Origin: Maribacter sp.
Lineage (GTDB): Bacteria; Bacteroidota; Bacteroidia; Flavobacteriales; Flavobacteriaceae
DNA: 64,000 nucleotides
Assembly (NCBI GenBank): GCA_011050675.1
Contig: DRFI01000015.1
Coordinates: forward strand, 1-64,000
Direction of reading: 5' to 3'
The notes under the pieces were generated by a model. It was not told the origin of the DNA. It did no database searches and saw only the letters and a program-made list of their open reading frames with translations. The position numbers and the translations under genes were made by a program. Positions within the stretch are counted from its first letter, which is position 1, and the number at the start of each line of letters is the position of its first letter. Shown in pieces: positions 6,372 through 25,187 of the stretch.

Positions 6372-7082
6372 CTATCTCATTTCTATCATTACTAAACCTA
6401 CGCCTACTTGAGCTACAATACCGCCTTGCGATTGCCCTACTATTCTTAACATTACATCTGCTTGGGCAGCTGCATCAATTGTAGTCCATGGGGTTTTAGC
6501 TAAACCGTTTACAGATATAGATAGTCCAGGTCCAAAACTTGCACTATTTAAAGAATTCCATGTAGCTCCGTCGTCTGTTGAGTATTGTAATAACATGTCT
6601 AAACCTGAAGCTCCGCTTAATGTTAAACCTGTGATGTTGGCAACAAGTCTCATTTCTCGAACATTAGTTAAGTCTAACTGAAATCTATGAATTGCTAAAC
6701 CTAAAAGTTCTACGGGAGATATGGTATCTACACTTAACCACCCTGAAGGTGTAATACCTGATAATATTGTAAATGCTGTAGTAGCTACACGATTATATAA
6801 ATCATAAACAGCACCTTGAACGAACATGACTGTATTTTGTTTATCCGTATCAAAAATCAATAACCCGTCTGCCGGATTCGTAAGAGCTGTAATTTGTGCC
6901 GTTGTCATTCTTGGAATTAACAAGCCTCCTGTAGTGGATTGAATATCCAAGGCTGCAGAGGCGTCAGGGCTCAATGTATTTATTCCTACTGATTGGGCAT
7001 TACCATGTAGTGTTATGGATAATAGAAAAAGAATAAGTAGTTTGGAAATCGATGTCACTTTAATTACACTTAATACTTTCAT
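6372..7082 (-). CDS. Exported protein with Bacteroidota surface-protein N-terminal motif
   Basis: This 236-residue protein has a clear signal peptide ending near HGNAQ. It then shows the segment [18 protein letters not shown] followed by GLLIPRMT, common near the N-terminus of large exported Bacteroidota proteins and resembling phage tail-fibre or collagen-like surface proteins. The rest looks beta-rich and has no catalytic motif I can name. It sits immediately upstream of the giant repeat protein on the same strand, so a shared role at the cell surface, for example as a co-secreted or anchoring partner, is a reasonable inference. No specific function can be assigned. Confidence 0.75.
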
Positions 7083-7737
7083 TATTTTATTTTATTTAAT
7101 TAACATTTATATAATAGTATAAATCAGATCTAAATGTAAGAATAATACTATATTGACAAATGTATTTCTTATTAAATAATTTAGAATAAAATGTTGTGTA
7201 AGTACTTATAACTTGTTGTGAAATCTTAATTATTGTACTTTAATACTATAAAAAGACACAATATTACTAATGAACTACAGTTTTTATTGATAAAAATCAA
7301 CTTTATATATTCTATAAAGTACGTGTAATTTGTAGGAAAAATGATAATTTGTAAGAATTTTTAAATGTAGGAATACTGTAATTTACCAATTAATGAATGT
7401 GGTATTCTAATTTAGAATTAATACCTATAATTAATTTCTGAGGTAAATTGTTAATGAAAATGAGATTGCTTTAGGGAGAAAAACTTTTATCGAATATTGT
7501 AATATGAAGATTTTAAATATAATTTTTTTGCCCAAAATAATTTGGATTTGATAGAATATAAAATTTGAAACTTATTAAGTACGGGTTAAATAACAATAGG
7601 TTCGGATCTAATTAATATTAATTAATTATGATTTTAGGTAACTTGTGTCAATCCCAATGTGCTTGAAAATAATTTGAATTATGAGGGAGTGATAAAGTGA
7701 GTCTACTATCTAATTTAAAAATCAATTAAGCTTACGT
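7083..7737 (-). promoter_or_regulatory. AT-rich intergenic region with candidate promoter box
   Basis: About 650 bases without a gene. On the minus strand TACATTTG (7157-7164) matches the Bacteroidota -7 consensus TAnnTTTG, about 75 bases before the start at 7082. A good TTG at the expected upstream position is missing. I see no RNA gene or repeat in the rest. Confidence 0.3.
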
Positions 7738-9375
7738 TTATTTTATCAAATTTATTTCGGCAATGCTTTTAATTCTATTTCGTTCTAAAAAGGCATCTAT
7801 AGTTTCAAAATGTTCAATAACACGTTGTTCTTTAAATTCAAAAACCTTCTGTGATAAACCTTGAAGAAAATCACGATCGTGAGAGACTAAAATTAATGTT
7901 CCATCATAAGTAGACAATGCTTCTTTGAGGACATCTTTAGATTTTAGGTCTAAGTGATTGGTAGGCTCATCTAAGATTAAAAGATTTACGGGTTCTAACA
8001 ATAATTTCACCATTGCCAGTCTAGTTTTTTCCCCACCAGAAAGCATGCCTACCTTTTTATCGATATCATCACCACTAAACATAAACCGCCCTAGAATATT
8101 CTTTATTTGATTACGGATGTCACCAAAAGCAACTTCATCTACAGTTTGGAAAATAGTAAGTTCTGGGTCTAAAAGAGATGCTTGGTTCTGTGCAAAATAC
8201 CCCACCTTAACATTATGGCCTAATTGGTAAGTACCTTCTACGGGTATCTCACCTAAAATAGCTTTTATCATGGTTGATTTACCTTCACCATTACGACCAA
8301 CAAAAGAGACTTTTTCACCTCTTGCGATCGACATATTCGCATCTTTAAAAACAATATGCTCATCATATGCTTTAGATACATCTTTAACCGTAACGGGATA
8401 ATCGCCTGAACGTGGGGCAGGTGGAAAGCTTAATTTTAATGAAGAAGTATCAATTTCATCGATTTCGATGATTTGAAGCTTTTCTAGCATTCGCTCTCTA
8501 GACGTAACTTGATTTGTTTTGGAATAGGTGCCTTTAAAGCGTTCTATAAACGCCATATTGTCGGCAATAAATTTCTGTTGCTCTTGGTATGCTTTTATTT
8601 GATGAGACCTGCGATCTTCACGTAATTGTAAATAGTGAGAGTAATTAGCTTTATAGTCATATATACGCCCCATAGTAACTTCTATCGTTCTATTGGTGAT
8701 ATTATCAATAAATGCTCTATCGTGAGAAATTACCATTACCGCATTGGCTTTGTTCAATAAGAAATCTTCTAACCAAATAACAGATTCAATATCAATATGG
8801 TTAGTAGGCTCATCTAATAGAATTAAATCGGGCTTTTGTAATAGAATTTTTGCCAACTCTATACGCATACGCCAACCACCACTGAATTCATTAGTTTGTC
8901 TGGTAAAATCTTCCTGTTTAAATCCTAGTCCTTTTAAAGCTTTTTCAACCTCTGCATCGTAATTTACTTCATCTAAGGCATAATATTTTTCACCTAAATC
9001 AGATACTTTTTCAATGATAGACATGTAGGCATCACTCTCATAATCTGTTCTAGTTTCTAACTCCTTGTTTAGCTTCTCCATTTCATCACGCATAGAAAAT
9101 ACGTGTTTAAATGCTTTTGCCGCTTCTTCAAATACAGTGCAGTTGTCTTCTGTAAGTAGATGTTGTGGTAGATATGCAATTACTGCATCTTTAGGTACCC
9201 TAACATTGCCACGGTTGCCCTTTTGCTCGCCTGCAATAATCTTCATCATTGTAGATTTACCGGCTCCGTTTTTACCCATAAGGGCAATTTTATCGGTTGG
9301 ATTTATTACAAATGATACATCACTGAATAGGGTAGTACCACTAAATTCTACGGCTAAGTTATCTACTGAAATCAT
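7738..9375 (-). CDS. ABC-F family ATPase
   Basis: Soluble 545-residue protein with two ATP-binding cassettes and no membrane segments, the hallmark of ABC-F proteins, which act on the ribosome (translation factors or antibiotic-protection proteins). Cassette 1 has Walker A GKNGAGKST (residues 34-42), signature FSGGW and Walker B LILLDEPTNHID. Cassette 2 has GRNGEGKST, signature LSGGEK and LLILDEPTNHLD. The charged linker between them is the P-site tRNA interaction motif region. The long C-terminal coiled coil of Uup is absent, so it is nearer to the EttA/YbiT/YdiF type. A housekeeping translation role is more likely than drug resistance, but sequence alone cannot separate these. Confidence 0.93.
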   Translation of the reverse strand: MISVDNLAVEFSGTTLFSDVSFVINPTDKIALMGKNGAGKSTMMKIIAGEQKGNRGNVRVPKDAVIAYLPQHLLTEDNCTVFEEAAKAFKHVFSMRDEMEKLNKELETRTDYESDAYMSIIEKVSDLGEKYYALDEVNYDAEVEKALKGLGFKQEDFTRQTNEFSGGWRMRIELAKILLQKPDLILLDEPTNHIDIESVIWLEDFLLNKANAVMVISHDRAFIDNITNRTIEVTMGRIYDYKANYSHYLQLREDRRSHQIKAYQEQQKFIADNMAFIERFKGTYSKTNQVTSRERMLEKLQIIEIDEIDTSSLKLSFPPAPRSGDYPVTVKDVSKAYDEHIVFKDANMSIARGEKVSFVGRNGEGKSTMIKAILGEIPVEGTYQLGHNVKVGYFAQNQASLLDPELTIFQTVDEVAFGDIRNQIKNILGRFMFSGDDIDKKVGMLSGGEKTRLAMVKLLLEPVNLLILDEPTNHLDLKSKDVLKEALSTYDGTLILVSHDRDFLQGLSQKVFEFKEQRVIEHFETIDAFLERNRIKSIAEINLIK

Positions 9376-9497
9376 ACTATAAATTTAAAAATGCAAAACT
9401 AGTAATAAGAAGTGATGCTTGTTACTAACTGCAATAAAAACTTATAGATGTTTTAGGAGGATAATCTTGAAAAACTATCAATTAAGATGGTCTTTAG

Positions 9498-9656
9498 TTA
9501 AGTACTTTTTTTATTACTTAACCAATTGTATATCAGTAATACCACAGCTAATAATAATAATAAATGAATTAAAGCTCCTAGAATTTTAAAAACTAAAAAA
9601 CCTAAAACCCAGCTTACGATAAGTACTATAATTAATATATAGATAATCTTTTTCAT
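9498..9656 (-). CDS. Small lmo0937/DUF5670-like membrane protein
   Basis: A 52-residue protein starting MKKIIYILIIVLIVSWVLG, with two hydrophobic stretches separated by a short FKILGALIH turn and ending LSNKKST. This pattern fits the lmo0937 (DUF5670) family of tiny membrane proteins, often found with general-stress genes. Its start lies two bases after the stop codon of the CsbD-like gene, so the pair is almost certainly one operon. The molecular role is unknown; membrane stress adaptation is an inference from the neighbour. Confidence 0.75.
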   Translation of the reverse strand: MKKIIYILIIVLIVSWVLGFLVFKILGALIHLLLLLAVVLLIYNWLSNKKST

Positions 9657-9658
9657 AA

Positions 9659-10003
9659 TTACTTTTTTGCAGTCCAGTTTATAATTTCATCTTTAATTTC
9701 CTGTATTGTTTTCTGTCTTTTATTGGCAATATCTGTAATTAGGGATTTTATATTGTTTTGCTCGTAATCAATGGCCATATCTTTAGTTTCTGGAAAATGG
9801 GACAAGTATTCGTCTCGTATTGCTAGCCACTGCTCTTCTAGATGTAAATCATTTTTGGCAACTGCAACGCCACCATTATTTACAGGATTTCCTATTTCTT
9901 CATTGGAATCTTTTTCTTTAGCATTTACTTGACTCTTTAGGTCTTTATTTGAAAGCTTATCTGAGGACATTGATTTCACATTACTTTTATCTTCTGTAAT
10001 CAT
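9659..10003 (-). CDS. CsbD-like putative stress protein
   Basis: 114 residues. The first ~50 are low-complexity, charged and Ser/Asn/Lys-rich. Residues 55-114 form a compact domain (LEEQWLAIRDEYLSHFPE, then about 20 residues, then KTIQEIKDEIINW) whose Trp and helix pattern resembles the CsbD-like general stress fold of Bacteroidota. No signal peptide is visible. It is the first gene of a two-gene unit with the lmo0937-like membrane protein. The family call rests on pattern similarity only; it could be an unrelated small helical protein. Confidence 0.55.
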   Translation of the reverse strand: MITEDKSNVKSMSSDKLSNKDLKSQVNAKEKDSNEEIGNPVNNGGVAVAKNDLHLEEQWLAIRDEYLSHFPETKDMAIDYEQNNIKSLITDIANKRQKTIQEIKDEIINWTAKK

Positions 10004-12614: not shown

Positions 12615-14465
12615 ATGATTTTAAAATACAAGAGCCTAAAACAATTAGGTTTTTATGCTTTTATTTTTTTAACGTTTTTTGCCTGCACAAAACAAGATAC
12701 TATTCGCCCAAGTATAGAGAAAAGTTTGCTAGCAATAGATAGTTTAACCTTAACGCAACCAGAGCGATCTATATTAAAGTTAGATAGTTTATTGCAAAAC
12801 AGTACCCATTTAACCACATTAGAAACAGCCATATTATTGTTCAATAAAGGAGAGGCATTATATCTGAACGATAAGTATCAAGAAGCATTTAATACCCATT
12901 TAAAGTGTAACGAATTATTCGCTGAATTAAACGATACGTATAATGAAAGTAGAAGTTTAATTTCATTAAGTGGTGCAGCGCTACATATGGGAGATATAGA
13001 ATCTGCACAGAAATATGCGTTAAAAGCATTGAGCTTGGCACAATTAATTGGAGATAAGCGTATAGAAGGTAAAGCCTATAATCAATTATTTAAGCTTCAT
13101 TTTAAACTAAAAGACTACGACAATGCCTTAGTCTATATATCAGCAACCGATAATTTATTCTCTAAAGGTATTGACACCACTTCTATTATAGCTATAAAGG
13201 GTAATAAAGCCAGTGTATACTTAAAATTAAAAGAGTATAATAAGGCTTTGTCTAGTTATTCAGAGGCAATGGCGCTAAGTCAATCGCAAAGGGATCCTAA
13301 AACATTGGTTAGTATTCTAAATAATATTGGCTACACTTATATTGAAGCTGGAGATTATGAAAGTGCAGAAAAGTTTCTGAGAGGTTCTGCTACCTTAAAT
13401 AAAAATATAAAAGCTATTAACGCAGCTCCGTATAAAGGATTGGGTAATTTATTTTTATTGAAAGCAGAAAATGATTCGGCAGAAGTAAACTATAAGAAAG
13501 CATTAGAAATCTACATTGCCAATAGCAATTTTAAAGAGGAAATAGAGGTAAGAGATAAACTCGTAGCCTTAGCGATTATGTCTGGAGATTACACTACGGC
13601 TTTAGATAACCAAATGGCTAGAGATAGCTTGCAGTTAAATGTAAGTAGCTTAGAAAAGGACAGGCTCTTAAACTTCGCCAATGTTAACTATGAGGTTAAA
13701 CAAAAGGAGACCGAGATAAATCATCAAAAAGAAATCAATAATAGAAATCAGTTGCTATTAATTAGTACGATAATGGTTTTCGTTTTCTTATTCATTGCAA
13801 CAGCGTTTTATATATATAACACCAAATTAAAAGCAGTTAATAAAGCATCGAAATTAGAACAAAGTCTACTGCGTGTGCAAATGAATCCTCATTTTATATT
13901 CAATACGCTAGCTGCTATTCAGAATATAACCTTAGAAGGGAACCCTATAAAATCATCAAACTATATTGCTAGATTTTCTAAGTTGATTCGACAAAATTTC
14001 GACTACGTTAGAAAGGAGTCCATTACACTGGACAAAGAGGTTTCTATGATTTCTAATTATATAGAAACGCAGCAATTACGTTTCAATAATATTTTTTCAT
14101 ATAAAATTGAAATAGAAGATTCTTTAGACGTACACGCCATAAACGTACCCCCAATGTTATTGCAGCCTTTTGTAGAGAATGCCATTGAGTATGGTTTAAA
14201 AGAGAAGAAAGTAGGAGGAGAGCTTTTTGTGAAAATAGATAGCAATTCAAATGGGTTATCGTTCGTTATTTTAGATAATGGTTTAGGTCGATCTGCAAAA
14301 GCAAAAAAAGAAAAGTTAACGGAAGAGTTACATGCAACAACTATCTTTTTAGAACGTTTAAAAATGAGGAAAAAAGGGGAAGAGAAATCTTTTGTTATAG
14401 AAGATTTATTCGACGATAATAATACCCCTATTGGAACAAAAGTATTTTTTAAATTGAAACTTTAA
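12615..14465 (+). CDS. TPR-containing LytS-type sensor histidine kinase
   Basis: 616 residues. An N-terminal signal with a lipobox-like FFAC is followed by tetratricopeptide helices over about residues 35-340, predicted periplasmic. A membrane segment follows near residues 378-400 (LLLISTIMVFVFLFI). The cytoplasmic C-terminus is a His_kinase (LytS/YehU) domain with the phospho-acceptor motif MNPHFIFNT (His426), then an ATPase domain with the N-box QPFVENAIEYG and the DNGLG motif. It would sense an envelope signal through the TPRs and phosphorylate the LytTR regulator, whose ATG overlaps this stop codon (TAATG, translational coupling). The signal is unknown. Confidence 0.92.
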   Translation: MILKYKSLKQLGFYAFIFLTFFACTKQDTIRPSIEKSLLAIDSLTLTQPERSILKLDSLLQNSTHLTTLETAILLFNKGEALYLNDKYQEAFNTHLKCNELFAELNDTYNESRSLISLSGAALHMGDIESAQKYALKALSLAQLIGDKRIEGKAYNQLFKLHFKLKDYDNALVYISATDNLFSKGIDTTSIIAIKGNKASVYLKLKEYNKALSSYSEAMALSQSQRDPKTLVSILNNIGYTYIEAGDYESAEKFLRGSATLNKNIKAINAAPYKGLGNLFLLKAENDSAEVNYKKALEIYIANSNFKEEIEVRDKLVALAIMSGDYTTALDNQMARDSLQLNVSSLEKDRLLNFANVNYEVKQKETEINHQKEINNRNQLLLISTIMVFVFLFIATAFYIYNTKLKAVNKASKLEQSLLRVQMNPHFIFNTLAAIQNITLEGNPIKSSNYIARFSKLIRQNFDYVRKESITLDKEVSMISNYIETQQLRFNNIFSYKIEIEDSLDVHAINVPPMLLQPFVENAIEYGLKEKKVGGELFVKIDSNSNGLSFVILDNGLGRSAKAKKEKLTEELHATTIFLERLKMRKKGEEKSFVIEDLFDDNNTPIGTKVFFKLKL

Positions 14466-15202
14466 TGATAAAAGCAATTATAGTAGAAGATGAGTTTAAT
14501 GCTCTTAATACTTTAGATAAACTTATTGCATACACGCAAAAGGATATTGAAGTTATTGCCAAGATAGATAATGTCGAAGATGCTATTTCATTTTTAAAAG
14601 AGAATACTCCTGATCTTGTTTTCTTAGATATTGAACTTATTGGTGGTAATGCATTTCAAATTCTAGAGGCTTTAGATAGTATTGCTTTTAAAATAATCTT
14701 TACTACAGCTTATGATGAATTTGCTATAAAAGCAATTAAGTTCGATACGGTAGATTACTTATTAAAACCTATAGATTCAGATGAATTATCTAACTGTATC
14801 GATAGGTTTAGAGTCAGTTTTAAAAAAGAGCAAGTTTACAAAAATGCGGTAGAGAAAGTTTCTGAAATTAATGATAAAGAGATTCAGAAAACATTATTGA
14901 TTAAAACTGCAGATGCTCAATATTTTCTTCAAATTACAGATATTGTTCGTTGCCAATCAGACGGGGCGTATACTACTTTCCACACCCTAGATAAAAAAAT
15001 CATGAGTGCTCGTAATTTAAAGTACTATGAAAATATATTAAGTGAGCACACTTTTGTACGTGTACATCAATCTCATTTGGTGAACATTAAATATATTAAA
15101 ACAGTTAATTCTAATAATACTGTTCGCTTAACTAATGATGAGACAATACCTGTTGCAACACGTAAGAAAACTTACCTAAAACAGATTTTAGAAACACTTT
15201 AG
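14465..15202 (+). CDS. LytTR family response regulator
   Basis: 245 residues: receiver domain (1-120) with the acidic pocket VEDE, phospho-acceptor Asp55 in LVFLDIEL and Lys in YLLKPID, then a LytTR DNA-binding domain from about 146 to the end, including the conserved FVRVHQSHLVNI segment. It is the partner of the preceding kinase, with a one-base overlap. Targets are unknown; candidates in the sequence are its own upstream region, with TTAGCCTAT repeats, and the five-gene cluster that begins 106 bases downstream. Confidence 0.93.
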   Translation: MIKAIIVEDEFNALNTLDKLIAYTQKDIEVIAKIDNVEDAISFLKENTPDLVFLDIELIGGNAFQILEALDSIAFKIIFTTAYDEFAIKAIKFDTVDYLLKPIDSDELSNCIDRFRVSFKKEQVYKNAVEKVSEINDKEIQKTLLIKTADAQYFLQITDIVRCQSDGAYTTFHTLDKKIMSARNLKYYENILSEHTFVRVHQSHLVNIKYIKTVNSNNTVRLTNDETIPVATRKKTYLKQILETL

Positions 15203-15264
15203 GCGCAAATACAAAACGAAATCGGCAAATTTAAAACGGTTTCAAGATCACGCTATCCATGCTA

Positions 15265-15272
15265 TAGTTTTG
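15265..15272 (+). promoter_or_regulatory. Candidate -7 box of the M48/TerB cluster
   Basis: TAGTTTTG matches TAnnTTTG and lies 36 bases before the first ATG of the five-gene cluster. No clear TTG is present at the -33 position, so support is partial. Confidence 0.3.
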
Positions 15273-15308: not shown

Positions 15309-15719
15309 ATGGGATTAAAAGAAAATCGATTTACAAAAACTTTTCAAGAAGAACAATTTCCACAGTTAAAGGGGCAAATAAATGAAGCCGCTGGTTTTGA
15401 TGTGCCTTTGAACATTGAATGGGAAAAATTATTTGAAGATCGCTTTATGCATCTTTATAATGATTCGTACCCAAAAATATATTTCTTCCCAATTATAGAA
15501 GCTTTCAAGTCAATAGCTACAGACGATATGGGAAAAGAAGCTCTTAAGGATAGCCTAAAAGAAATACGTATAACCAATACAGTAGACCACCATAACCCAA
15601 GTAACGCATATTCATTTGTAGATGGAGTGCTAACATTTGATCATAGCCCAATAATTAATGCCGAAGATGTTGATAGACGAACAAGTGTTCTTATAGAATT
15701 ATTAGAGAATAATCTATAA
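15309..15719 (+). CDS. Hypothetical protein; stand-alone copy of the N-terminal domain of the 17436-18596 product
   Basis: 136 residues, cytosolic by appearance, family not recognised. It aligns end to end, at roughly half identical positions, with the first ~137 residues of the fourth gene of this cluster. Shared blocks include the MGLKE start, INxAAG, EDRFxHLYN, PKIYF, DDMG and the HSPxINA segment. This is the first gene of a plus-strand cluster ending in an M48-TerB protein. Having the domain both alone and fused suggests that the copies pair or compete. Function unknown. Confidence 0.75.
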   Translation: MGLKENRFTKTFQEEQFPQLKGQINEAAGFDVPLNIEWEKLFEDRFMHLYNDSYPKIYFFPIIEAFKSIATDDMGKEALKDSLKEIRITNTVDHHNPSNAYSFVDGVLTFDHSPIINAEDVDRRTSVLIELLENNL

Positions 15720-15761
15720 GCTACCATTTAAACTGAAGTGTAATAGGTTATAAATATTGAT

Positions 15762-16733
15762 ATGTTCAAATTCATTTTTTACTTTGTCCTGATAATAATT
15801 TTACTGTTTGTCGCTGGTTTTGGTTTTTCTAATTTGAAAGCTAAAAGAGACTTTGTAGCGCATTTAAATAAGTATCATCATAATAAATATGATATACTAA
15901 CATTTAAAAGAAATTTTAATGCAGCTAACATGAACCCTAATCTATACCGGGTAGAGTTAGCGCTCAAAGAAAACAGAGACATTATTATCAACTTTGAATG
16001 GAATGCAAAAAGTAAAGATTTACATTTTTCATTTCACAGCAGTAGAGACAGGGGTATTGAAGCATTAACACGCTATGAAGAGCAAGTAATTGTATTACGT
16101 AAAGAAATGCATGAATTGTTGCGTGCAGATTTATATAATTTGGATGTCAATGTTTATAGCCACACTATAGATATAAGTTTAAAAGCAGAACCTACGCTAC
16201 AAGATTTTCAATTTTTTTCTGATAAGATATGTAGCTTATTGGTGGATTACCCAGATACATGGATGCAAGAAGCTCATGTTAGTTTTAAAATTATAGAAGA
16301 AACAAAAGGGTTCTATGAGCTTATTGTAAAGCCTAGCACAATTGATGATAGTAACGATTCATTTAGATATAGACACAATGCTATTGTTACTAATAATTAT
16401 GGTTCAGAAAAAGCTGAGCGTATTGGTGCTATCGTTCAAAAAGAATTTTCCAAAACAGATTCTCCTGCTTACTTAAATAATATTTGGGTCCATCAATCTC
16501 AACTAGACTCTCTTTACATCGCTTTTGAAAAACATGAATACCTAAAAGAATCTGAGGGTAATGTCAATTTAACAAAGGGTGTTGGAATGGGTTTTGTAAA
16601 AATGAACTATCCCAAATTAGAGAAGGAAACTTATACTTATTATGATTACAAGACCACACCTAGTGATGGCATTTATATGTACCTAATTAGTCAATTGCCA
16701 GAAGATTACCAATATCTCATAGCAGATTCTTAA
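15762..16733 (+). CDS. Hypothetical membrane-anchored protein in the M48/TerB cluster
   Basis: 323 residues, not recognised. A single hydrophobic N-terminal segment (FIFYFVLIIILLFVAGFGF, residues 4-22) followed by a basic stretch reads as a signal anchor. The remainder is a soluble alpha/beta-looking region with no catalytic motif that I can identify. It is the only membrane-attached product in the cluster and could tether the system to the membrane (inference). It starts 42 bases after the preceding gene and ends 14 bases before the next. Confidence 0.7.
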   Translation: MFKFIFYFVLIIILLFVAGFGFSNLKAKRDFVAHLNKYHHNKYDILTFKRNFNAANMNPNLYRVELALKENRDIIINFEWNAKSKDLHFSFHSSRDRGIEALTRYEEQVIVLRKEMHELLRADLYNLDVNVYSHTIDISLKAEPTLQDFQFFSDKICSLLVDYPDTWMQEAHVSFKIIEETKGFYELIVKPSTIDDSNDSFRYRHNAIVTNNYGSEKAERIGAIVQKEFSKTDSPAYLNNIWVHQSQLDSLYIAFEKHEYLKESEGNVNLTKGVGMGFVKMNYPKLEKETYTYYDYKTTPSDGIYMYLISQLPEDYQYLIADS

Positions 16734-16747
16734 AACCACCTAAAATC

Positions 16748-17401
16748 ATGGAAAAATCATTTTATAAAGCGTTTGTAGCTCAAACGCCAGAGGAAGTATT
16801 GCATACTGTTTTTAAGAAAGAGGAAGACATTTTAATAGCGATTTCATTAAATAATGGAGCATATTTAGAAGGTGTAATTCTAGATATTACTAAAGATAAT
16901 GATCACCAAAAATCTGTGTGTATGTTATCTCTAGAAGAACAAGTTTACTTTTTCAATATTCACACTATTTCCCTTGTTACTATAAAACAACCTAAAAAAA
17001 TGGTTGTTGAATTATCTAAAGGAGCTATTAGTAGACCAATTTCATCAGATAATGAAAACCTTACTGTTTTACAACTTAAACGTTGGTTAAGTGCTGAGAA
17101 AAGTACGCTAGGAAATCAAATTCAAGTATTCAATATTGAAGCTGTTTCTACTGAAGAATTAAATGACAGACTAAACATACAAGATGTCTTTTCGGCTCTA
17201 AAGAGTGTAGTTAGTATAATAACTAAAGACGAATTAGGTAAAGAGGCTTGGAGCGGTATTGATACTGTGGTTTTACAGCAAGCCGACACATTAGAGCTCA
17301 ATATTAAAGAAAATACATTGACTATTTCAATTGCTATAGATAAGGCTTTACCTGCAAAACTATCTGAAGTTTTAGAAAAAAAACTTCTTCGAATATTATA
17401 A
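16748..17401 (+). CDS. Hypothetical protein in the M48/TerB cluster
   Basis: 217 residues, no signal peptide or membrane segment, family not recognised. It is rich in short hydrophobic beta-like stretches (ILIAISLNNGAYLEGVILD near 27-45) and has a charged helical middle (VLQLKRWLSAEKSTLG). No metal-binding or nucleotide-binding motif is visible. It is placed third in the cluster with small gaps on both sides, so co-expression is likely. Function unknown. Confidence 0.7.
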   Translation: MEKSFYKAFVAQTPEEVLHTVFKKEEDILIAISLNNGAYLEGVILDITKDNDHQKSVCMLSLEEQVYFFNIHTISLVTIKQPKKMVVELSKGAISRPISSDNENLTVLQLKRWLSAEKSTLGNQIQVFNIEAVSTEELNDRLNIQDVFSALKSVVSIITKDELGKEAWSGIDTVVLQQADTLELNIKENTLTISIAIDKALPAKLSEVLEKKLLRIL

Positions 17402-17435
17402 ATAAATAAAATATAATTTTTTAAATAAAACCAAA

Positions 17436-18596
17436 ATGGGACTTAAAGAAAAAAGAATAATTAAAGCATTTGAAAACGATTTATATCCAGCATTAGAGAC
17501 CGAAATTAATGGAGCAGCAGGTTACACTGTAGCAATTGAGATTATGTGGGACACTTTAATGGAAGATCGCTTTTCTCATTTATATAACGAAACCTTTCCA
17601 AAAATCTATTTTCTACCATTAATAGAAGGTTTTAAAGCTATTTGTTTAGATGATATGGGTATTGATCTTTTAAAAGCAGGATTAAAAAAAGTAATCATTG
17701 TTAATGAAAATGATGAGCATAACATAGAACGAGCTATAACTTTTGAGGATGGTGTGTTAAAGATAAATCACAGTCCGGTAATTAATGCGGATAAGGTTGA
17801 GGACAGAACAGCAAGAATCGTGTCTTTACTAGAAGATAAATTGGAAGATTTTGCTGAAAACAAAAGAGAGACGGCAACTACTGAATCAGCTAGTAATAAT
17901 GAGAATACTGCTGACACTCCAAATACGCTAGACATAAATGAATTGTACAACCAGTCGTTCGTTACATCTGTAGAAAAACAAGAGATTTTTAATGAAATCG
18001 TTGAAGGCTTAGGCTGGAGCTGCGATATGTTAGAAGGTAAATTAACCTTTGGGGAAGACAAAGTTTTTGATATTCAAATTCTTGGAACCTATTCAGAGAA
18101 CGAGAAAAGTTGGTTATGGGCTTGGGCAAATACACAGAGTGGTATTCCAGAGAAATTTTTACAAACATCATTAGCGGTAAAAGCATTGGGCGAAGCTTAT
18201 AAAGTTGAAGATTTTACTACTCCTAAAATGGAGGTTGAATCTGATCCAGGTGTGTTTTTCTCTACTATAGCCTCTGTTATGACAGGAGAAAGCTGCTATG
18301 TTCCTTTAACGTTTAAAGGCATAATAGTATATGTGACCATTACTTCTAAAGAAGCAGATAGTAAGGCTAGAACATCACCAGCTTTAATCTGTTCTCATTT
18401 TTCTCAAGTAGCTGCCAATTACACATTTCCACATAAATACAGTTTGTTCTTTTATTTAAAAGCCAAAGGTTACGAAGTAGAATTACCTGGTAACAATGTA
18501 GTAGCCAAAAATGGAGAAGATCAAATTTTAGGAATATTTGATTTAAAAGGCAGACTAATGAAAATTTCTAACTCAAAATTAACCGTTCAAGCTTAA
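17436..18596 (+). CDS. Two-domain protein: cluster-specific N-terminal domain plus DUF6882-like domain
   Basis: 386 residues. Residues 1-137 are a paralogue of the 136-residue first gene of the cluster. An Asn/Thr/Glu-rich linker (about 140-170) follows. The C-terminal part contains a DUF6882-like signature, SWLWAWANTQSG, with the following helix of alanine-rich residues. DUF6882 has no established function. No signal peptide is present, so it is cytosolic. It ends four bases before the ATG of the M48-TerB gene, suggesting tight coupling of the two products. Confidence 0.7.
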   Translation: MGLKEKRIIKAFENDLYPALETEINGAAGYTVAIEIMWDTLMEDRFSHLYNETFPKIYFLPLIEGFKAICLDDMGIDLLKAGLKKVIIVNENDEHNIERAITFEDGVLKINHSPVINADKVEDRTARIVSLLEDKLEDFAENKRETATTESASNNENTADTPNTLDINELYNQSFVTSVEKQEIFNEIVEGLGWSCDMLEGKLTFGEDKVFDIQILGTYSENEKSWLWAWANTQSGIPEKFLQTSLAVKALGEAYKVEDFTTPKMEVESDPGVFFSTIASVMTGESCYVPLTFKGIIVYVTITSKEADSKARTSPALICSHFSQVAANYTFPHKYSLFFYLKAKGYEVELPGNNVVAKNGEDQILGIFDLKGRLMKISNSKLTVQA

Positions 18597-18600
18597 AATT

Positions 18601-20097
18601 ATGTCAACATACACATCACAAACATTATCAGATTTAGAAAAAGAACATCAAGCAGCTATTAATACAGCTCAAGAAAAAATGTTAACCGAATTAAATGATG
18701 CTCAAGCATCTGGTAATTTAGAAAAAATACAAGAAGCCAGTGTTGTCTTTCAAAACATAACAACAGAATTGGCAAAAGAATACACTACTAAAATAGAGGA
18801 AATTAATGCCTTAAACCATAAGGCGACCGTAGCCGATGAACCTCAAATATATACTACTAAACGTGCCGATGTAGATTTAAATTTATTGGTCTACGACGGA
18901 GATAGAGACTATGTTATCGCTTTTCAGCAAGATGAATTAATACAAGGGACTTTAGAAAAAATAAACAAGAACAGCGGTAAATTTAAGTCTAGGAAACATT
19001 TACTAAAATCTAGTCTAAGGTTGACAAAAACTTTGGCGCCAATGCTTCATGAAATTGGAGAGCATTGTAAGAGCACATTAAAACTTAAAGCCGATATAGA
19101 GTTTTTTGTATACCAAAGCGATATGTTCAATGCCTCTTGTTATCCGCCAGATGAAAATAAATTATATATAATTCTATCTTCTGGAATCTTAGAGCGTTTT
19201 TCTAAAGATGAATTAACTTTTGTGGTTGGTCATGAAATTGGTCATGTTCTTTTTGAGCATTTCGATTATCCTGTTAGACAAATTTTGGACGCGGGAGAAA
19301 ATGAATTAGCACCAATACATGCAATGAAGTTATATGCTTGGAACAGAAATGCAGAAATAAGTGCGGATAGAGCAGGACTATTATGTTGTCAAAATTTTGA
19401 AGCGGTAGGTCGTACGTTCTTTAAATTATCTTCTGGTGTAACGACAGACTCTTTAGATTTTCAATTGAATTCTTACATTGAACAGTTTGTAGATTTAGAA
19501 GAGGTGTTGAATGATGCAAACCATGACCCTTCAGATTGGTATAGCAGTCATCCTTTTAGTCCGTTACGAATTAAAGCTTTGGAGCTTTTTAATAAAAGTG
19601 AAACCTATGCGGCTTTTAATGACACCATAACCGGTGAAATTACAGAAGAAGCAATGGAGGTAGAGATTAAACGTATTATGTCTTTAATGGAACCAGAAAA
19701 CTTAGACGAAGAAGGTGAACATTCAGAAAAAATACAACGCCTAATGTTTTTAGGAGGCTATTTAATATCCAATGCAGATGGTGTTGTTGATGATTCTGAA
19801 ATACAAGCTTTAAGTAGTATTGTTGCTCCAAAAGTTTTTGCTAATTGTATGATGACAATTAAGGGGCTTACGGAAGATGAAATGATTAGCGAAGTACAGC
19901 AGCTAACCCATGACCTACATATTGTACTTTCTGTAATGCAAAAGTTGAATATACTTAGAGACTTATCTATTATATCTTATGCAGATGGACATATAGACGA
20001 TAGCGAGGTAAATGTATTGTACAATTTAGCTAGGCTCTTATATATCAACACAGATTTTATTGATCGTGTTATTAGTGATGCTCAAGGCATAGAGTAA
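18601..20097 (+). CDS. Cytosolic M48 metallopeptidase fused to TerB-like domain
   Basis: 498 residues with no signal peptide or membrane segment, unlike the usual HtpX, Ste24 and BepA branches of M48. Residues 1-90 are helical and likely coiled coil. The peptidase core has the zinc motif HEIGH (His211, Glu212, His215) and the third ligand in AEISADRAG (Glu252), typical of M48. Residues ~380-498 form a TerB-like all-helical domain with two acidic repeats (YLISNADGVVDDSE and IISYADGHIDDSE), a likely divalent metal site. TerB domains occur in Ter-dependent stress and conflict systems. This is the last gene of the cluster; a hairpin terminator follows. Inferred role: a metal-responsive intracellular protease acting with its neighbours. 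Confidence 0.85.
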   Translation: MSTYTSQTLSDLEKEHQAAINTAQEKMLTELNDAQASGNLEKIQEASVVFQNITTELAKEYTTKIEEINALNHKATVADEPQIYTTKRADVDLNLLVYDGDRDYVIAFQQDELIQGTLEKINKNSGKFKSRKHLLKSSLRLTKTLAPMLHEIGEHCKSTLKLKADIEFFVYQSDMFNASCYPPDENKLYIILSSGILERFSKDELTFVVGHEIGHVLFEHFDYPVRQILDAGENELAPIHAMKLYAWNRNAEISADRAGLLCCQNFEAVGRTFFKLSSGVTTDSLDFQLNSYIEQFVDLEEVLNDANHDPSDWYSSHPFSPLRIKALELFNKSETYAAFNDTITGEITEEAMEVEIKRIMSLMEPENLDEEGEHSEKIQRLMFLGGYLISNADGVVDDSEIQALSSIVAPKVFANCMMTIKGLTEDEMISEVQQLTHDLHIVLSVMQKLNILRDLSIISYADGHIDDSEVNVLYNLARLLYINTDFIDRVISDAQGIE

Positions 20098-20117: not shown

Positions 20118-20150
20118 AAGGGTAGCAATTTTAAATTGCTACCCTTTTCT
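20118..20150. terminator. Bidirectional hairpin terminator
   Basis: AAGGGTAGCAATTT pairs with AAATTGCTACCCTT around a very short loop, flanked by A and T runs. It lies between the convergent M48-TerB and MORN-like genes and can serve both. Confidence 0.8.
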
Positions 20151-21623: not shown

Positions 21624-24600
21624 ATGCGTTCAATATTCTTTACCCATGCCTTTCTCCTTTGTTGTAGTACAGTTGTTTCTCAAAACGTAGAAGCTAACAA
21701 TTTAGGGAAGGAAAAAGAGATTTCACATTCATTCTATATTACATCTAACGTTGGTAATGTTTCTTTTACTGATGCAAAAATTATTTTGGAGGAGATTAAT
21801 TTGGCATCTAATAATGATAAAGATGCAACGTTATTGTTATTAGGGAATGTAGTAAACAAAGATGGTTTTTCTTCAAACAATGAAATGCAAGAAAAAGGAA
21901 AGTCTTACCTAAGACCTTTAATGAGTATATGGGATAAGTTTAATGGTAATGTCATCTTAACCCCGGGAGAGAACGAATGGTTAAAGGATGCTCCTCAAAG
22001 TATAGATGATCTAGAATCTTTTTTACAGGATAACAGTAAAGCTAAGTTTTGGCCAAATGACGGTTGTCCTATAGAGCGTGAAACAATTAATGATGATGTG
22101 GTACTAGAAATGGTAGATTCTCAATGGTTTTTAGAAGATTGGGATGATCACCCATACATAAACGAAAAGTGTGAGCATAAAACTAGGGGTCAGTTTTTGG
22201 CAGAGTTTAAAGATGATTTAAAGGATAGCCAAGGTAAAACCGTAATCGTTGCTGTGTACCAACCCGTAATGAGTAATTCCAAAATTTCCATGATTGATAA
22301 AATGGGAGGATTTACACCAGAATCATATCAGAATAAAGAAAATAGAATTTTACGAGGTAAGTTAGAGACTATAGCTAGTCAGTTTGAAGATGTCATATTT
22401 GTATCTGGCAAGGACCGTAATCTACAATATTTAGAAGATGATGGTATTCCACAAATTATTAGTGGAGCAGTTGGTAAAACTGAAAAAGCAAGAGCACCTA
22501 AAGAAGAACATTTTGAATCTACCAATAATGGTTATGCAAAATTGATTGTATATAAAGACGGTAGTTCTAAGGTTGATTTAATTGAAGTTAAAAATGGAGG
22601 CTCTAAAGTTGCTTTTACTCAAAAGATAAAAAGGGAACGACTTTTTATAGAAGATGTTTCCTTCCCTAAAGAATATGTTGGGTCAACTGCGAAGGCATCT
22701 ATATATACGAAAGAAGAAACGGATAAAAGCGGATTTTATAAATGGGTATGGGGAGATCACTTTAGAAATCTTTATAGTAAAGAAATAGAAGCACCGGTTT
22801 TAAAAATAAATGAACTCCCCAATAATGTTAGACCAATTTCAGAGGGTGGTGGAACACAATCAAGATCTCTTAGACTAATAGATGATAATGAACATGAATA
22901 TACTTTAAGAGCTCTGCGAAAGAGTGCAGTACGTTTTCTGCAAACAAACGCTGTAGAGCATCATTATGTTGAAGACTATCTTAAAAACACCGTTGCAGAG
23001 CGTTATGTTCTCGATTTCTATACTACAGCTCATCCATATGCTCAATTCGCAATGAACGAACTGTCGGAATCCATTAATGTGTTGCATGCAAACCCAAATG
23101 TCTATTATGTACCTAGGCAAAAAGGATTAGGTATTTATAATGAAGATTATGGCGATGCACTTTTTATGTTAGAGGAACATGTAGGAGACGAAAACAAAAA
23201 TTTTGAAACCTTTGGCAATCCAGATGATATTATTAGCACTACAGATCTTCGTTTAGAGCTTATGGAGTCTAAAGATTCATACGTAGACGAACCAAGTTTT
23301 ATTCGCGCACGATTGTTTGATATGTTGGTGGGTAATTGGGATAGACACCAAGACCAGTGGCGTTGGGCTCAGTTTAAAACTGAAGATGGAAAAAAAAGAT
23401 ATGAAGCTATACCTAGAGATTGGGATCAAGTTTTTCCTAAATACGACGGTCCCATCATTGGTATGTTGAAATTTGCTTTTCCATTGCTTCGAAAAATGGA
23501 AACTTTTGATGACGATATTAAGAATGAGAAGTGGTTTAATTTATCGGGTTATCCTTTAGATAAGGCGTTTATAAAAAATGCTGATTGGGATGATTGGAAA
23601 GCGCAAGTAGACTTTATTCAAGAAAATTTGTCTGATGAAGATATAAGCCTAGCCTTTAAATCTTTACCCGAAGCTGCACAAGATAGTAGTATAGAGGAGA
23701 TAAAAAAGAACTTGCAATCTAGACGAGATAAACTACAGAGTATTGCACGAACCTATTATGATTATTTAAATAATTTTGAGGTAGTTATAGGAACGGAAGA
23801 TAATGATGAATTCTTAATTACCAGAAAGCCTAACGGAGATACTTATATCTCTATATCAAAAGATACCATAGTCTTTAATAATACCTACAATTCTAAAGAG
23901 ACTAAAGAAATATGGGTTTACGGATTAGATGGTAATGATACGTTTACGGTTAATGGGGAAGGAGATAAGCTTGTTGACATTAAAATTATAGGAGGTAAGA
24001 AAGATGATACTTATGATTTTAATTCAACAAAAAAAGTAAAGCTGTATGATTATAAGAGTAAGAACAATACTATTATTAATCCTAAATCAAAGAAATGGTT
24101 AACAGATTCATATGACATCAATACGTATGATTACCAAAAGAGAAAGTACAATGAAAATATAATTTTTCCGAGTTTGGGTTACGATGGCGATTCAGGATTT
24201 AGAATCGGTTTAAAAAATCGTTTTACAACTTATGGCTTGGCTAATAATCCTTTTAAGGCGCAACATACCATAGGAGGGGAGTATTTCTTTGCAACCAACG
24301 GATATGCAATTGACTATAATGCAGAATTTGCTCATGTATTCTATAACTGGAACTTAGGTTTCGATTTACGATATGCCAGTCCAAATTTTACAACGAACTA
24401 TTTTGGTGAGGGTAACGATACTTCATATGACAATGAGATAGACAGAGATTTTAATCGAGTTCGTATAAGACAATGGAAAGTTTCTCCTTATTTGGTCCAT
24501 ACCGATGCCGGTAGTAGTTACCATTTTAGGTCAGCGTTAGAATCTTTTGATGTTTCTAATGATGATGACCGCTTTATTGGGCAATCTTTTTCCATAGATA

Positions 24601-25187
24601 ATGATGTTTATGAAAAACAATTATATGCTACTGCTGAGGTTGGGTACAAATACAAGAATGAAAATGACCCGGCTTTTCCAAATCGGGCTATGCAAGCAGA
24701 TATTGTAACAGGGTATACTTCTACTATTAATGGATATGATAATAGTTTTGGATATGTAAAACCATCACTATCATTAACTTACCCTTTACACCCAAGTGGT
24801 ATAGCTGTTATTGCCACTAAAATTGCTGGTGAAACAATTATTGGTGATAATTACGAATTTTACCATGGTGCGGTTATAGGGGGTAATCAAAGTTTACGAG
24901 CATATAGAAATGAACGGTTTAATGGTAAGACTTCCTTTTACCAAAGTACAGATCTAAGAGTTGGTGTTACTAGATTTAGAACAAATTTTGTACCCATACA
25001 ATTGGGAGTTAGTGCAGGATTTGATTATGGTCGTGTTTGGACAGATGATGATAATTCTACCAAATGGCATAATGATTTTGGTGGCTCTGTATGGATTTCA
25101 GGTTTCAGCGCATTAACAGGAAATCTAGGTTTTTATCACGGAAGAGATGGTAATCGTTTTCTATTTAGTGTAGGTTTTAATTTTTAA
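21624..25187 (+). CDS. Outer-membrane protein: degenerate metallophosphoesterase, kinase-like segment and Omp85-type barrel
   Basis: 1187 residues with a signal peptide (ends VVSQ). Residues ~35-320 follow the layout of the calcineurin-like phosphoesterases fused to barrels in Bacteroidota, but the metal ligands look lost: GNVVN (74-78) where GDNxY is expected, GENEW (115-119) for GNHDW, YQPVM (212-216) for HHP, and SGKDRNLQ (261-268) for SGHEHNLQ. The middle (about 405-610) has a glycine loop GGGTQSRS, a possible acidic hinge EEH (517-519) and GNWDRHQDQ (570-578) with IPRDWDQVF (596-604), recalling catalytic loops of Fam20/HipA-type kinases. The C-terminus is a surface-antigen/Omp85 barrel (GGNQSLRAYRNERF, final VGFNF). 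Function unknown; an enzymatic role of the middle part is inference. Confidence 0.8.
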   Translation: MRSIFFTHAFLLCCSTVVSQNVEANNLGKEKEISHSFYITSNVGNVSFTDAKIILEEINLASNNDKDATLLLLGNVVNKDGFSSNNEMQEKGKSYLRPLMSIWDKFNGNVILTPGENEWLKDAPQSIDDLESFLQDNSKAKFWPNDGCPIERETINDDVVLEMVDSQWFLEDWDDHPYINEKCEHKTRGQFLAEFKDDLKDSQGKTVIVAVYQPVMSNSKISMIDKMGGFTPESYQNKENRILRGKLETIASQFEDVIFVSGKDRNLQYLEDDGIPQIISGAVGKTEKARAPKEEHFESTNNGYAKLIVYKDGSSKVDLIEVKNGGSKVAFTQKIKRERLFIEDVSFPKEYVGSTAKASIYTKEETDKSGFYKWVWGDHFRNLYSKEIEAPVLKINELPNNVRPISEGGGTQSRSLRLIDDNEHEYTLRALRKSAVRFLQTNAVEHHYVEDYLKNTVAERYVLDFYTTAHPYAQFAMNELSESINVLHANPNVYYVPRQKGLGIYNEDYGDALFMLEEHVGDENKNFETFGNPDDIISTTDLRLELMESKDSYVDEPSFIRARLFDMLVGNWDRHQDQWRWAQFKTEDGKKRYEAIPRDWDQVFPKYDGPIIGMLKFAFPLLRKMETFDDDIKNEKWFNLSGYPLDKAFIKNADWDDWKAQVDFIQENLSDEDISLAFKSLPEAAQDSSIEEIKKNLQSRRDKLQSIARTYYDYLNNFEVVIGTEDNDEFLITRKPNGDTYISISKDTIVFNNTYNSKETKEIWVYGLDGNDTFTVNGEGDKLVDIKIIGGKKDDTYDFNSTKKVKLYDYKSKNNTIINPKSKKWLTDSYDINTYDYQKRKYNENIIFPSLGYDGDSGFRIGLKNRFTTYGLANNPFKAQHTIGGEYFFATNGYAIDYNAEFAHVFYNWNLGFDLRYASPNFTTNYFGEGNDTSYDNEIDRDFNRVRIRQWKVSPYLVHTDAGSSYHFRSALESFDVSNDDDRFIGQSFSIDNDVYEKQLYATAEVGYKYKNENDPAFPNRAMQADIVTGYTSTINGYDNSFGYVKPSLSLTYPLHPSGIAVIATKIAGETIIGDNYEFYHGAVIGGNQSLRAYRNERFNGKTSFYQSTDLRVGVTRFRTNFVPIQLGVSAGFDYGRVWTDDDNSTKWHNDFGGSVWISGFSALTGNLGFYHGRDGNRFLFSVGFNF

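Follow-up and report, generated by a model that had tools for sequence, protein, structure and literature searches.

LytTR-type response regulators bind paired direct repeats, M48 proteases carry an HEXXH motif with a downstream glutamate ligand, Hfq proteins have a conserved RNA-binding histidine motif, and TerB domains occur in Ter (tellurite/stress) systems. Here we describe a locus of Maribacter sp. in which a histidine kinase gene (H), a LytTR response regulator gene (R) and five further genes (A to E) follow one another on one strand, the last of them encoding an M48 protease with a TerB domain. It lies in a 64,000-nucleotide stretch of contig DRFI01000015.1 (assembly GCA_011050675.1, positions 1 to 64,000 of the forward strand), the whole of which we call the window. 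On balance we favour reading this locus as a portable two-component proteolytic response module of marine Bacteroidota, in which the kinase and regulator would switch on A-E and cleavage by E would be the output. Each part is of a known kind or falls in an unnamed family, and our searches of open-access papers found no description of the module. Its features in the window are as follows.

12615-14465, + strand: histidine kinase H, the putative sensor, with a lipobox-like N-terminal anchor, TPR repeats, a transmembrane segment and a His_kinase domain
14465-15202, + strand: response regulator R, with a LytTR DNA-binding domain (Pfam)
15206-15237, + strand: candidate operator, direct repeats at 15206-15217 and 15226-15237
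15265-15272, + strand: putative promoter -7 box TAGTTTTG of the Bacteroidota TAnnTTTG type, from spacer conservation
15309-15719, + strand: gene A, a stand-alone 136-residue "A domain" with no Pfam family
15762-16733, + strand: gene B, membrane-anchored, lipoprotein-like in most labelled relatives, the variable member
16748-17401, + strand: gene C, a predicted Sm/Hfq-like barrel (~16787-16984), then what looks like a diverged A domain (~17066-17398)
17436-18596, + strand: gene D, A domain (17436-17855), DUF6882 (17940-18344) and a small C-terminal part
18601-20097, + strand: gene E, M48 (19039-19584), HEIGH (19231-19245) and C-terminal TerB (19762-20055)
20118-20146, + strand: terminator-like hairpin after gene E, from stem folding against shuffles

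Gene layout and the two-component pair

The original prediction placed five open reading frames (ORFs) on the + strand with gaps of 42, 14, 34 and 4 bases, and its coordinates and gaps are exactly reproduced. Its individual features are also borne out: the promoter-like box before the first gene (TAGTTTTG at 15265-15272) is kept in related loci, the last gene is followed by a hairpin (13-bp stem, -17.8 kcal/mol, z -4.98), gene D matches DUF6882 (Pfam, 5.3e-28), the one membrane-anchored product is that of gene B (a single N-terminal hydrophobic anchor), and gene E has HEIGH, Glu252, TerB and M48. The five genes are real, but the extent assigned to the unit was too small, as the two upstream genes for the kinase and the LytTR regulator (12615-15202) also belong to it. 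The proposal of a sensor/protease module thus stands in that the genes occur together in a conserved order, but the main sensor is the upstream pair and not one of the five genes. Chance or mis-called ORFs were rejected as an explanation of the module genes by a survey of 29 related loci.

The kinase and regulator genes overlap by one base (14465) and lie immediately 5' of gene A. In Pfam the kinase matches TPR_12 (4.4e-22) and His_kinase (5.8e-20), and the regulator matches Response_reg (3e-16) and LytTR (2.7e-19), so that with the two side by side the pair qualifies as a LytTR two-component system. Hydropathy places a transmembrane segment at about residues 376-404 of the kinase, and a lipobox-like pattern is present in 16 of 26 kinases. 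The pair is found directly upstream of the protease in 26 of the 29 related loci, as it is in the window. The raw regulator count of 28/29 is higher, as it includes unrelated regulators 4.0 kb (L038) and 5.6 kb (L025) from E.

A likely control site upstream of gene A

The spacer between the regulator and the first gene is likely a control site. In the window it contains two direct repeats of 12 bases each, CAAATACAAAAC and CAAATTTAAAAC, with a repeat spacing of 20 bases here and in L014 and of 21 bases in 25 other loci. The repeat pair is conserved in 27/27 spacers examined with a degenerate pattern. This pattern was written from these same sites, and matrix scoring is therefore the independent test. 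For each locus, matrices were trained with its clade excluded. In 26/26 loci the spacer site then outscores every other position on either strand of the stretch (12-64 kb each, L118 being used in training only). Scores range from 10.5 to 16.9 in loci other than L035 and L036, compared with reversed-sequence maxima of at most 6.9. If the window's LytTR regulator binds these repeats, as we expect, it would act directly in front of gene A. This link from the two-component pair to the operon is the firmest step of our reading.

TAnnTTTG is the Bacteroidota -7 consensus. A box of this form is present in the spacer of 25/27 loci, and TAGTTTTG itself in 23/27. Among 12 clade representatives of 24 aligned spacers, the columns of the conserved blocks have a mean identity of 0.93 versus 0.69 in the remainder of the spacer, and 0/105 rotations give a value as high. 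A repeat pair followed by a -7 box, searched with a pattern written from the window's site, occurs once in its own 4.7-Mb genome and not at all in the reversed control. Two other site patterns were also searched. The stricter recovers no true site and has one match elsewhere, and the looser has 24 matches, 19 of which are in the regulator-to-first-gene spacer (reversed control, 4). The spacer is 82-107 bases long in 21/26 loci by raw ORF calls. Outliers are 33 (L118) and 64 (L039), where starts were called early, 183 in L035 and L036, and 226 in L016 (Algibacter lectus), whose gene A ORF (6686-7093) has an in-frame stop while its other module ORFs are open.

Autoregulation, in which these repeats would also control the kinase gene, was considered and rejected, as most loci have no such site. 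Only L030, L031 and L037 have a second repeat-pair match, between the kinase gene and a divergent gene. In L030 this match is at about 3649 (- strand), and there, as likewise in L031 and L037, it lies upstream of a divergent 270-residue gene that has no Pfam family in L030 and could be a further regulon member. At the other end of the unit, 0/200 shuffles fold as well as the hairpin after gene E, which has only four T residues after its stem and is not listed by a terminator pattern scan.

Conservation and movement of the module

A single pattern-based search through 84,980 species genomes for protease relatives yielded 27 loci, which together with L010 (found by the protease) and L118 (found by the A domain) make up the 29 related loci. 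Profile labelling assigns A in 27 of them, D in 26, C in 25 and B in 11. The presence of E in all 29 says little because E was the search key for 28. Six or seven module genes are kept in 25/29 loci, although such counts are not independent because the loci are related. Wherever module genes are linked, which is the case in 27 loci, all of these lie on one strand. The conserved order is H-R-A-(B)-C-D-E, which becomes H-R-C-D-A-E in L035 (Flammeovirga) and L036 (Saccharicrinis). A lone protease with variable neighbours, the pattern that would have spoken against a module, fits only 2/29 loci (L025 and L038). These may represent one event because their neighbours resemble each other, and both genomes hold an A-C pair elsewhere.

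The pairwise distances of the kinase, regulator, C, D and E correlate with r of 0.91-0.97 (300-325 pairs, not independent), as would be expected of a unit that moves as a whole. Of these five proteins, to which the comparison was confined, E changes most slowly: its mean distance is 0.40 times that of C, 0.56 times that of D, 0.58 times that of the kinase and 0.82 times that of the regulator.

The distribution is patchy. Full-length E is present in 4/120 genomes of the family, its own included, with three further matches that are weak and M48-only. In a phylum sample it occurs in 2/395 genomes, again including its own, plus one distant M48-TerB protein, and the same-genus genome G075 lacks it. 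In the E tree, Flammeovirga and Saccharicrinis, which belong to different families, are sisters (100/100, path ~0.10). In their loci, L035 and L036, the protease gene is immediately followed by a separate LRR_5 gene and then by a DUF7691 gene. Because of the cross-family sisters and these common genes after E, the evidence points to lateral movement of the module between the two lineages. No relative was confirmed in viral contigs or phages, and the plasmid matches, found on 8 plasmids, are confined to the M48 domain and span at most 41% of the protein. With no full-length match on phages, viral contigs or plasmids, phage or plasmid cargo was rejected.

The protease

Gene E matches Peptidase_M48 (5.1e-18, 66 bits against a cut-off of 20.3) and TerB (PF05099; 9e-10, 39.3 bits against 24.4), which places it in both families. 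For M48 this rests on the HEXXH motif and the downstream glutamate ligand as well as the family profile. HEIGH (residues 211-215) and Glu252 are invariant in 16/16 aligned sequences, including the window's. Hydropathy finds no signal, membrane or other hydrophobic stretch in gene E, and it is therefore cytosolic by sequence, a cytosolic zinc protease. The intact active site makes proteolysis the probable output of the module. The closest relative is the Maribacter stanieri protease (L014, 98% identity), which suggests, together with the E tree, that the window is Maribacter-like. The proteases of L035 and L036 lack the first ~80 residues.

Partner proteins

The first 136 residues of gene D are paralogous to gene A (51% identity). 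Gene C looks like a third, diverged carrier of the A domain. Its second half aligns with this domain in hhalign (E 4.2e-5, probability 69.5), the modelled secondary structures of the two agree in order (helix-helix-strand-strand-strand-helix), and the C profile matches A-type ORFs of several relatives, though not all, at E 5e-4 to 2e-10. The common domain suggests that A, C and D form a mixed complex.

The N-terminal part of gene C is modelled by AlphaFold as a helix plus five strands, with a predicted local distance difference test of 81-95 for the block of residues 11-80 (whole-protein predicted template modelling score 0.52, 13 sequences). The 50 best PDB matches shown by Foldseek are 49 with Hfq in the title and one YaeO (E 5.4e-4 to 3.4e-3). 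An Sm/Hfq-like fold is thus predicted for this part, for which no Hfq family match was found in Pfam. The gene D model has 0/249 PDB matches at E <= 0.001 in the fold search, and no paper on DUF6882 was found among the open-access papers searched. In Tenacibaculum loci L030, L031 and L037 an LRR_5 (BspA-type) block is inserted between the A domain and DUF6882 (gene D at 8116-9951 in each; E 7.1e-37, 6e-38 and 1.8e-37, respectively). Of the 11 labelled relatives of gene B, five carry a strict lipobox and four narrowly miss the pattern, with Ser-Cys. The cysteine is absent from the two that are nearest the window. The window's own gene B also lacks the lipobox cysteine.

A possible mechanism

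These parts could form one circuit. A membrane-bound TPR kinase would sense a change at the envelope and phosphorylate the LytTR regulator. By binding the repeat pair in front of gene A, the regulator would then turn on A-B-C-D-E. A, C and D would probably assemble into one complex through their common domain, in which the Hfq-like barrel of C would form a ring or bind nucleic acid and DUF6882 would serve in recognition. B would work at the envelope. The complex would direct or restrain E, the cytosolic M48 protease with its TerB domain, and the output would be the target proteins that E cleaves.

Several observations weigh against this reading. The loci are related, with Tenacibaculum contributing 10/27, and the scan query consisted of four module-borne proteases plus short peptide patterns, which favours finding the module. 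E stands alone and unlinked in L025 and L038, L033 is reduced to A-D-E without the two-component pair and C, and L034 to H-R-A-B-E without C and D. L035 and L036 lack the TAnnTTTG box, and their repeat pairs score 2.0 and 2.6 versus reversed maxima of 1.3 and -1.6. The conserved blocks of the spacer were picked by eye from the same alignment in which their identity was measured. The hhalign probability that relates C to the A domain is only 69.5, and the Sm-like similarity of C is modest (4/1216 Foldseek matches at E <= 0.001). By sequence C matches only SmD1 chains, at E 0.98 to 1.5, and the Hfq-type histidine varies among its relatives.

A and C without the protease

The A domain was found in 15/299 family genomes, at least five of which carry E (G000, G001, G011, G021 and G533). 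The match in G634 is at the same coordinates as in the L034 genome. In 21 stretches (L076-L085, L095-L097 and L119-L126) A is present with no E match in the stretch, and C adjoins A, or is one gene off, in 14 of them. For seven of these 14, L081 and L121-L126, C was labelled by a broadened profile built with L081 among its sequences, and for the remaining seven by the original profile. The L082 stretch breaks off shortly past A. Five of the 21 (L080, L122, L124, L125 and L126) also hold a B-like gene. A TPR histidine kinase and a LuxR-type regulator, both checked with Pfam, occur within a few genes of A in 7/21 (L080, L097, L120, L122, L124, L125 and L126). L077 was rejected as a kinase pair and not counted, since its TPR proteins have no kinase domain. 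By the counts of 14/21 and 7/21, A and C accompany TPR kinases despite the other regulator type and the missing protease.

The alternative that survives best builds on this distribution. It retains the two-component operon and assigns its function to A, B and C, with an RNA- or protein-binding Sm ring, while E would process or turn over A, C or D. Because A occurs with C in 14 of the 21 E-less loci, these two proteins should have a function of their own. E, however, is the slowest-changing of the five proteins compared and its active site is fully kept, which suggests that it has a main role. We regard this alternative as possible, though clearly less probable than a module whose output is proteolysis. 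Somewhat more doubtful still is a new kind of regulated proteolytic machine: an A-domain scaffold with an Sm/Hfq-like ring, perhaps gated by nucleic acid, would activate the cytosolic M48-TerB protease on command of the envelope kinase, and related A-C scaffolds without the protease would serve other TPR-kinase outputs across Bacteroidota.

Some A-C pairs have further neighbours. DUF1266 genes lie next to large TPR proteins a few genes away in L079 (6925-7602) and L080 (3210-3872). Weak TssD/Hcp-like genes are located between A and C in L124 (5410-5811), L122 (4333-4725) and L126 (5723-6127), with scores of 28.3, 28.9 and 31.2 bits (cut-off 25.8), and each is the sole TssD match of its genome. 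A link to a type VI secretion system, which these genes suggested, is not supported for the window, whose own genome has 0 TssD matches. Of nine E-carrying genomes tested, five have no TssD and four have it (G001, G011, G511 and G513). VipB was found in 0/18 genomes, even where TssD arrays are present, so that search is uninformative.

Defence and housekeeping alternatives

In a role in defence or conflict, which had also been raised as a possibility for the five genes, the module would sense invasion or attack. E would then halt the invader, or the cell itself, by cleaving either an inhibitor or proteins that are essential. The patchy distribution and lateral movement of the module would suit such a role, as would the LRR_5 sequences of five loci, within gene D in three from Tenacibaculum and in a gene after E in L035 and L036. 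A PADLOC candidate model, PDC-M03A, weakly matches a 1187-residue gene of the window (21624-25187; 18.5 bits at best, ~30 residues). In addition, a distant M48-TerB protein is located near genes for vWA and Tubulin_2 proteins in a genome of another family (L086, 2386-10300). This setting resembles the GTPase/tubulin/vWA conflict loci in the part of PMC7159879 considered here, within which M48 occurs 0 times. The L086 type of protein is present in 1/395 genomes of the phylum sample and 1/32 of its own family.

The comparisons with known defence systems came out negative. Searched against PADLOC-DB 2.0.0 with a threshold as loose as E <= 1, the five proteins match no profile. Nor do five other flanking genes of the window have a PADLOC match, and no relative was confirmed in viral contigs or phages. 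Ordinary genes predominate among 10 flanking genes scanned from six loci. Eight of them have Pfam matches, to families that act in metabolism or RNA modification or whose function is unknown (aconitase, leucyl/phenylalanyl-tRNA transferase, pseudouridine synthase, PfkB kinase, a beta-lactamase-family protein, a TPM-domain protein and two DUFs), and two have none. A TPR kinase at the envelope would also suit an external signal better than an intracellular invader. We consider a role in defence rather unlikely.

A solitary housekeeping protease whose neighbours are there by chance, as the isolation of E in L025 and L038 might suggest, is highly improbable, because no full-length match was found in 116/120 family genomes and 25/29 loci keep six or seven genes.

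Implications and comparison with known systems

If the module works as we propose, then one testable circuit brings together two orphans, a sensor kinase and a cytosolic M48 protease, along with a likely DNA site of the system. Its signal could be screened by reporter because the likely operator and the output form one unit. DUF6882 and three unnamed families gain a common context, and a predicted Sm-like protein is added to a group that, to our knowledge, has no canonical Hfq.

Its parts differ in characteristic ways from the systems that they resemble. The original prediction's link to Ter systems holds for the TerB domain of gene E and nothing else: the module's seven proteins have no TerC or TerD match in Pfam, and the locus is not a Ter operon. 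The L086 protein shares M48 and TerB in one protein, with profile positions 90-494 matched, but no A, B, C or D profile match occurs in its 20-kb stretch. Gene C is like Hfq and other Sm-like proteins in its predicted helix plus five-strand barrel, and differs from Hfq in having no family match, no conserved RNA-site histidine and an A domain after the barrel. Gene E shares HEXXH, the downstream glutamate and a profile score well above the cut-off with HtpX, LoiP and their M48 relatives. It falls far under the NCBIfam cut-offs for both HtpX (24.2 versus 245 bits) and LoiP (18.6 versus 365), so that it is not an HtpX, and unlike these proteins it has no membrane segment or signal peptide and carries TerB.

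A further parallel is with LytTR systems of the AgrA, YpdB and AlgR type, in which the regulator is likewise beside a kinase and paired direct repeats about two helical turns apart lie upstream of the presumed target. Our searches of open-access papers found no description of a protease operon as a LytTR target. The Maribacter locus differs from these systems in that its kinase has TPR repeats and its presumed target is a protease operon.

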